Part shown: one piece after another, positions 42,449 to 42,830 of the stretch
How positions within the stretch are numbered: position 1 is the first letter of the stretch
Layout of the letters: each line of letters opens with the position of its first letter
Assembly (NCBI GenBank): GCA_023375675.1
Contig: JALQBC010000001.1
Coordinates: 992,001-1,056,000 of the forward strand
Length of the DNA stretch: 64,000 bases
Source: Cytospora piceicola
Taxonomy: Eukaryota > Ascomycota > Sordariomycetes > Diaporthales > Cytosporaceae
Reading direction: 5' to 3'
Made by a program: the position numbers and the translations under genes
Notes under the pieces: model-generated
What the model was told of the DNA's origin: nothing
The model's input: the letters and a program-made list of their open reading frames with translations, nothing else
Databases searched by the model: none

Positions 42449-42453
42449 AAAAA
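42449..42453 (-). terminator. Pol III terminator of initiator tRNA gene
   Basis: Five consecutive T on the minus strand, 8 nt beyond the discriminator base of the tRNA. This is the expected Pol III stop signal. Confidence 0.8.
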
Positions 42454-42461
42454 GAATGGAA

Positions 42462-42589
42462 TAGCTACAACTGGTTTCGATCCAGCGACCTCCGGGTTAT
42501 GAGCCCGGCGCCTTAATTGTGTGTTAGTATATGTGTGGATCAATATTGAATTGATGGTTGAACTCACTCTTCCCCTGAGCTATGTAGCT
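42462..42589 (-). tRNA. initiator tRNA-Met(CAT) with GT-AG intron in D arm
   Basis: Minus-strand exons 42589-42568 (22 nt) and 42511-42462 (50 nt). Joined they give a 72-nt cloverleaf with every stem paired: acceptor AGCTACA/TGTAGCT, D stem GCTC/GAGC, anticodon stem CCGGG/CCCGG around loop CTCATAA, and T stem GCTGG/CCAGT. Initiator hallmarks are the A1-T72 pair, the GGG/CCC pairs next to the anticodon loop, and the T loop ATCGAAA with A54 and A60. The promoter A box (TAGCTCAGGGG) lies wholly in exon 1 and the B box (GGATCGAAACC) in exon 2. The gene is split inside the 3' strand of the D stem, not at the canonical site next to the anticodon. The 56-nt insert has mRNA-type splice signals. Unspliced, the D stem cannot form properly (GAGT in place of GAGC, followed by unrelated sequence). 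Confidence 0.92.
42512..42567 (-). other. spliceosomal-type intron inside initiator tRNA
   Basis: 56 nt on the minus strand. Donor GTGAGT at 42567-42562, a perfect TACTAAC branch site at 42529-42523 with the branch A at 42524, and a 3' end of AAG at 42514-42512, 12 nt from the branch A. A 6-bp hairpin (ATCAAT / ATTGAT, loop TCAAT) lies between donor and branch. There is no run of four T, so Pol III would read through. These features match the neighbouring mRNA introns and do not resemble a tRNA-endonuclease intron. Confidence 0.85.
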
Positions 42590-42830
42590 GATGAAGAATT
42601 TGCTTTGAAGAAGGGCTTATATTGTAGTGGACTTGGCCCAGACGATGACTCACACTCGGGTGCCGACTATATTCGATCCCCCTCTACCTCCAGTGGGGCC
42701 TTGTCAGGGTCTAACCCTAACACTGACTGCAAAAAGCAGGCAACCAAGCTGCCAAAGTATATTGCCAGTCAGGTAAAACCTCAGGTTCCCAATGTCACAA
42801 CACCACATCCAGCACCACTGAACACGCACA
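42590..42830. promoter_or_regulatory. divergent tRNA / ASNSD1-like promoter interval
   Basis: 241 bp separate the 5' end of the initiator tRNA gene and the start codon of the asparagine-synthetase-domain gene, which point away from each other. No TATA element was recognised. Confidence 0.4.

Follow-up and report, generated by a model that had tools for sequence, protein, structure and literature searches.

An initiator transfer RNA (tRNA-Met) gene of the ascomycete Cytospora piceicola was found to be split, within its D stem, by an insert carrying the donor, branch and acceptor signals of messenger RNA (mRNA) introns. The gene lies on the minus strand of a 64,000-nucleotide stretch of contig JALQBC010000001.1 (assembly GCA_023375675.1, positions 992,001 to 1,056,000), hereafter called the window. 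Searches of the assembly gave four initiator tRNA genes, and all are split in the same way. By far the best account, to which a probability of about 88% is assigned, is that a U2-type spliceosomal intron interrupts all four and that they are functional genes of RNA polymerase III (Pol III); function and the mode of splicing are argued here from sequence. We know of no tRNA that is processed by the mRNA splicing machinery.

Anatomy of the split gene

From position 42589 to position 42462 the minus strand reads AGCTACATAGCTCAGGGGAAGA, an insert of 56 nucleotides (nt) and GCGCCGGGCTCATAACCCGGAGGTCGCTGGATCGAAACCAGTTGTAGCTA. The exon coordinates, the strand and the splice signals given in an initial annotation of this DNA were checked against the sequence and agreed with it. 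When the two exons were joined (72 nt), ARAGORN called a tRNA-Met(CAT) with a full cloverleaf, as expected from the earlier description of a flawless 72-nt initiator. The joined molecule carried A1-T72 and the GGG/CCC pairs of the anticodon stem (G29-31:C39-41), together with A54 and A60 of the T loop ATCGAAA, which we take to be the marks of an initiator. The insert separates tRNA positions 23 and 24, on the 3′ side of the D stem, and does not lie at the canonical 37/38, in keeping with the original claim that it falls outside the normal site of tRNA introns. The splice junction may slide by one G (AAGA/GTGAGT...AAG/GCGC), and the GT-AG placement was chosen because it fits spliceosomal rules. 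In unspliced form, the 64-kb window yielded no ARAGORN tRNA gene, the Rfam tRNA model scored 22.4 bits on the locus against a cut-off of 29, and no Rfam family reached its own cut-off anywhere in the window. No stop-to-stop frame of at least 250 amino acids overlapped the tRNA locus.

The features of a Pol III gene were present in the form of A and B boxes, identified by sequence against their consensus and lying in separate exons, and of a T-run terminator. Runs of five or six T started 9–12 nt downstream of all four initiator genes, and TATA-like elements were located at −30 to −34 in three of them, the fourth (L002) having only TATGA at −39 and −12. The inserts contained no T run longer than 2.

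Copies across the genome

The assembly containing the window (43.6 Mb in 99 contigs) was searched, all match counts being lower bounds. The joined 72-mer matched four places, in each case over exon 2 alone (nt 23–72, 100%), and no uninterrupted initiator tRNA match was obtained in this assembly. A pattern extending from the anticodon stem-loop to the T loop and tolerating at most 3 mismatches in its fixed positions recovered the same four loci and gave 0 matches in the reversed control. The initial annotation had allowed for a second, intact initiator gene; with the whole assembly searched, every one of the four genes found was split. Exon 1 was identical and the insert stood at the same point in all four, which are spread over three contigs. 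All 72 exon positions were invariant, the inserts measured 55–56 nt with pairwise identities of 62–91%, and in a four-way alignment the exon columns were invariant and the flanks mostly different. None of the four unspliced genes was called by ARAGORN, and one reached the Rfam tRNA cut-off (30.3 bits). A broader tRNA census, in which 63 of 1659 first-look candidates were scored, missed many isotypes.

The string formed by exon 1 and the donor was absent from a viral contig set and occurred twice in a genome contig set, both times in bacterial bins. Neither of the 8-kb loci around these two matches contained an ARAGORN tRNA, and the matches were taken as chance. A blastn search of the locus against bacterial plasmids returned short partial matches, covering at most 17% of the query among the matches listed (20 of 120).

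Splicing signals and comparison with mRNA introns

GTGAGT, CTAAC and AAG were kept in all four inserts, with a branch-to-acceptor distance of 12 in each. With insert columns counted in the coordinates of copy L001, and the signals taken as those named beforehand in the window copy, invariance held for 14 of 14 columns within the three signals versus 17 of the 41 other insert columns (one-sided Fisher p=6e-5). The string GTGAGT-N26-45-CTAAC-N5-15-AAG occurred once in the window, exactly at this intron; in 100 dinucleotide shuffles its mean count was 0.08, and 8 of the 100 held at least one. Since the three other, diverged copies keep donor, branch and acceptor, the insert is not explained by an assembly error, which the initial annotation had named as an alternative, or by a single broken copy.

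For comparison, putative mRNA introns were collected by a mechanical scan for motif-bearing introns joining open frames in 144 kb from 27 sources (loci on contig C65 omitted), which gave 37 introns versus 5 in reversed sequence. The commonest donor among the 37 was GTGAGT (8/37), and CTAAC was the second commonest branch (9/37) after CTGAC (17/37). Their branch-to-acceptor distances ranged from 4 to 26 with a median of 12, the value seen in the tRNA inserts, and the length of the inserts fell within the range of the 37. The A content of the inserts was 41–43% versus a mean of 26% in the putative mRNA introns. Among the features of U2-type introns, the tRNA inserts have GT...AG ends with a fungal donor and a CTRAY branch at a fungal distance; a YAG acceptor is absent.

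When the four precursors were folded together with RNAalifold (each row one end base short), the T arm, the anticodon arm and the acceptor stem were found, with 0 compensatory changes. The predicted precursor also pairs GCTCA of exon 1 with TGAGT of the donor. From this model, GCTC may change partners, pairing with the donor before splicing and with GAGC of the D stem in the mature tRNA.

Introns in a U6 gene and in further tRNA genes

Tani & Ohshima in 1989 and Canzler et al. in 2016 reportedly described spliceosomal introns in fungal U6 small nuclear RNA (snRNA) genes. Fungal U6 is made by Pol III. The precedent invoked in the initial annotation, that of introns in fungal U6, was met with in this very genome, where U6 was located at two places. 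The copy at locus L036 has two GT-AG introns, one of 53 nt (GTAAGT...TACTAAT...CAAG), ending in AAG like the tRNA inserts, and one of 60 nt (GTAGGT...TACTGAC...ACAG). Removal of both restored a 5′ hairpin capped by TTCG and the canonical GATACAGAGAAGATTAGCATGG core. The second intron is visible in the Rfam alignment, which places the 5′ end of the model wrongly inside the first; because of this misplacement, the limits of intron 1 were read against the intronless copy. Intron 2 holds a B-box-like GTTCAAGTC; a B-box-like sequence is likewise present in the intron of fission yeast U6. The intronless copy (locus L035, 1501–1599; G000:C63:24720-24818, minus strand) differs by two G-to-A changes in the GATACAGAGAAGATTAGC block of the core and, judged by its sequence, is possibly a retrocopy or a decayed gene.

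Ordinary tRNA introns were called at ARAGORN positions 36–40 in 14 loci outside C65, and the tRNA endonuclease pathway is therefore presumably in use in this genome. ARAGORN made one further call, of a 95-nt intron at position 25, which showed up twice since loci L021 and L029 on C65 overlap; it is probably spurious and was left out of this count. Contig C65 (135,041 bases) carries many tRNA genes and appears to be a mitochondrial genome of large size. A tRNA-Asp with an odd 5′ end (L064) was rejected as a second case, since an ordinary intron in the anticodon loop is present in the intact tRNA-Asp copies inspected (L078, L076 and one on the plus strand in L072). In the tRNA-Asp-like sequence shared by L064 and L072 (G000:C2:185643-185704, minus strand), the anticodon intron is exactly absent and the 5′ part degenerate; by its sequence, it looks copied from a spliced tRNA. 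An intact tRNA-Asp that has the intron lies some 275 bp away in the opposite orientation. Locus L063 (G000:C5:312149-312205, minus strand) gave a partial tRNA-like match with the 5′ part seemingly missing, beside very AT-rich DNA, and is probably a pseudogene. A local cluster of tRNA calls on both strands, five for tRNA-Asn and one for tRNA-Val, lay within 14 kb at G000:C21:384810-398602. Two U3 small nucleolar RNA (snoRNA) genes (Rfam Fungi_U3) were located at G000:C22:315239-315517 and C27:297055-297333.

Table 1. Features of the split initiator tRNA-Met gene (positions in the window), its copies and the intron-bearing U6 gene.
Feature	Position	Strand	Remarks
Exon 1, initiator tRNA-Met nt 1–22	42568..42589	minus	acceptor 5′ strand and D arm to position 23; same in 4/4 genomic copies
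GT-AG intron, 56 nt	42512..42567	minus	between tRNA positions 23 and 24
5′ splice site GTGAGT	42562..42567	minus	from sequence and alignment of copies
Branch site TACTAAC	42523..42529	minus	branch A = 42524, 12 nt from intron end; ACTAAC kept in 4/4 copies
3′ splice site AAG	42512..42514	minus	first AG past the branch
Exon 2, initiator tRNA-Met nt 23–72	42462..42511	minus	CAT anticodon, T arm with ATCGAAA loop, acceptor 3′ strand, A73
A-box region TAGCTCAGGGG	42572..42582	minus	in exon 1; matched to tRNA A-box consensus
B-box region GGATCGAAACC, initiator type	42473..42483	minus	in exon 2; matched to B-box consensus
TATA-like element	42616..42621	minus	32 nt 5′ of the tRNA
T5 run, Pol III-type terminator	42449..42453	minus	begins 9 nt 3′ of the tRNA
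Initiator locus, window copy	C1	minus	
Initiator locus L001	C32	minus	
Initiator locus L002	C32	plus	
Initiator locus L003	C25	plus	
U6 gene with two GT-AG introns	L036 from 1501 up; G000:C68:682185-682353 and beyond	minus	Rfam and reading of the sequence

Neighbouring genes

Upstream of the tRNA, the nearest frame of at least 250 amino acids starts at 42822 on the opposite strand and encodes a glutamine amidotransferase domain. An M3 peptidase encoded in the window was 96% identical to an unnamed protein, 86% to Diaporthe ampelina and 80–82% to Pleurostoma, Phaeoacremonium, Cryphonectria and Coniella. On this one protein, the fungus is probably a member of the Sordariomycetes near Diaporthe, placed beside or inside the Diaporthales.

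Discussion

Several observations weigh against a spliceosomal intron in functional initiator genes. The main mismatch is the acceptor, which is AAG and not YAG in all four inserts. AAG ends 4 of the 37 putative mRNA introns as well as U6 intron 1, and YAG is a preference and not a defining rule. In the introns of fungal U3 genes the acceptor is YAG in all but one (PMC5832005). Since loose motifs for donor, branch and acceptor served to choose the 37 introns, part of the agreement in motifs follows from the selection itself. The column test compares paralogues and measures conservation, not four independent events. The short T runs of the inserts had been considered as evidence of selection for Pol III transcription and were dropped, 29 of the 37 putative mRNA introns also being without TTTT. 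The modelled helix between GCTCA and TGAGT could hinder binding of U1, or hinder or time splicing. The 99 contigs and the lower-bound counts leave a small probability of an intact initiator copy. A search for relatives with the initiator patterns gave 0 matches in the viral contig set and 0 in the genome contig set.

The inserts might alternatively be non-canonical tRNA introns of the kind found in red algae, nucleomorphs and archaea, which the tRNA splicing endonuclease would recognize through a bulge-helix-bulge and cut. The genome does have ordinary tRNA introns, among others in the anticodon loop of tRNA-Asp, but the central 4-bp helix of a bulge-helix-bulge did not get beyond 2 of 4 pairs in any of the four copies when slides, bulge sizes and wider offsets were tried, whereas a control scan of the 14 ordinary intron loci gave 4/4 pairs in 8 and 3/4 in 6. 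Shuffled inserts reached at least 3 central pairs in 288–332 of 500, and the real helix is, if anything, weaker than chance. Moreover, the endonuclease model predicts none of GTGAGT, CTAAC and AAG, yet these are conserved, and compensatory changes are absent from the folded alignment. Removal by the endonuclease, which had been left as an alternative in the initial annotation, is judged very unlikely.

It is likewise very improbable that the four split genes are decayed or silent while an intact initiator gene was left unassembled or missed. The assembly of 99 contigs leaves room for such a gene. According to a review (PMC4090602), insertions in the D or T arm of eukaryotic tRNA genes mostly affect a single gene out of several synonymous ones and are usually regarded as marks of pseudogenes; in the present genome every copy found has the insertion. 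The exons remained identical at 72 positions in four of four copies while the inserts drifted to 62% identity, a pattern unexpected for decaying pseudogenes. The T-run terminators were kept, and no further initiator was present at up to 3 mismatches. The count of four also resembles the three tRNA-iMet predicted by tRNAscan-SE in Trichoderma simmonsii (PMC8600724); these three genes hint that the initiator intron is not common to all Sordariomycetes. A chance insertion, an assembly error or a self-splicing element of group I or II is scarcely credible in view of the same insertion point at four separate loci with diverged inserts, the signal string expected 0.08 times per 64 kb by shuffling, and the lack of any Rfam family above cut-off in the window. 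Group I and II introns are also longer than 55–56 nt.

A spliceosomal intron in a Pol III gene has a close counterpart in the introns of fungal U6, which likewise have GT-AG ends and a fungal branch site and interrupt a structured RNA of small size made by Pol III; U6 is, however, a part of the spliceosome, whereas the initiator is a cytoplasmic tRNA, of a class with dedicated splicing enzymes. Canonical introns of eukaryotic nuclear tRNA genes also lie in a Pol III precursor, but at 37/38, where they are removed by endonuclease and ligase; here the position is 23/24, the signals are those of mRNA splicing and no endonuclease structure was found. A bacterial intron is known from the same host, an initiator tRNA gene, but it is self-splicing and sits in the anticodon loop. 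The spliceosomal introns of fungal U3 genes differ in the snoRNA host, in an average length of 92 nt and in the acceptor (PMC5832005). The tRNA introns of Cyanidioschyzon merolae and of nucleomorphs are eukaryotic and occupy non-canonical positions including the D arm, but for C. merolae a review names the bulge-helix-bulge as the determinant, and for nucleomorphs it gives the mode of splicing as unknown (PMC4090602). In the present inserts no bulge-helix-bulge was found and GT-AG signals are conserved. The open-licence literature searched, in part among the matches listed, yielded no account of a tRNA with a spliceosomal intron, in line with the initial statement that no case was known for an initiator tRNA; earlier notice elsewhere is possible. 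Spliceosomal introns in structured Pol III RNAs are known, and a tRNA as host class would be new, none being known to the author.

On the preferred reading, that of a spliceosomal intron, TFIIIC would contact the A box of exon 1 and the B box of exon 2, and transcription by Pol III would continue across the intron as far as the T run downstream. Excision of the 55–56-nt intron by the major spliceosome would join AAGA to GCGC, by which the D stem would be restored; trimming, modification and addition of CCA would follow. It is probable, though argued with less assurance than the intron itself, that in this fungal lineage an entire isoacceptor, the sole tRNA able to start proteins, depends on the mRNA spliceosome for its maturation, that splicing capacity sets the supply of initiator and with it global translation, and that U6, with its two introns, stands in the same loop.

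Tools that search for tRNA genes can miss genes split in this way, as the results with ARAGORN (0/4) and at the Rfam cut-off (1/4) indicate. The splicing of tRNA and that of mRNA are taught as the work of separate machineries. An essential tRNA with a spliceosomal intron in every gene found would, if true, break that rule; the spliceosome would be able to handle a tRNA-like Pol III precursor, and translation initiation in this fungus would be tied to splicing.
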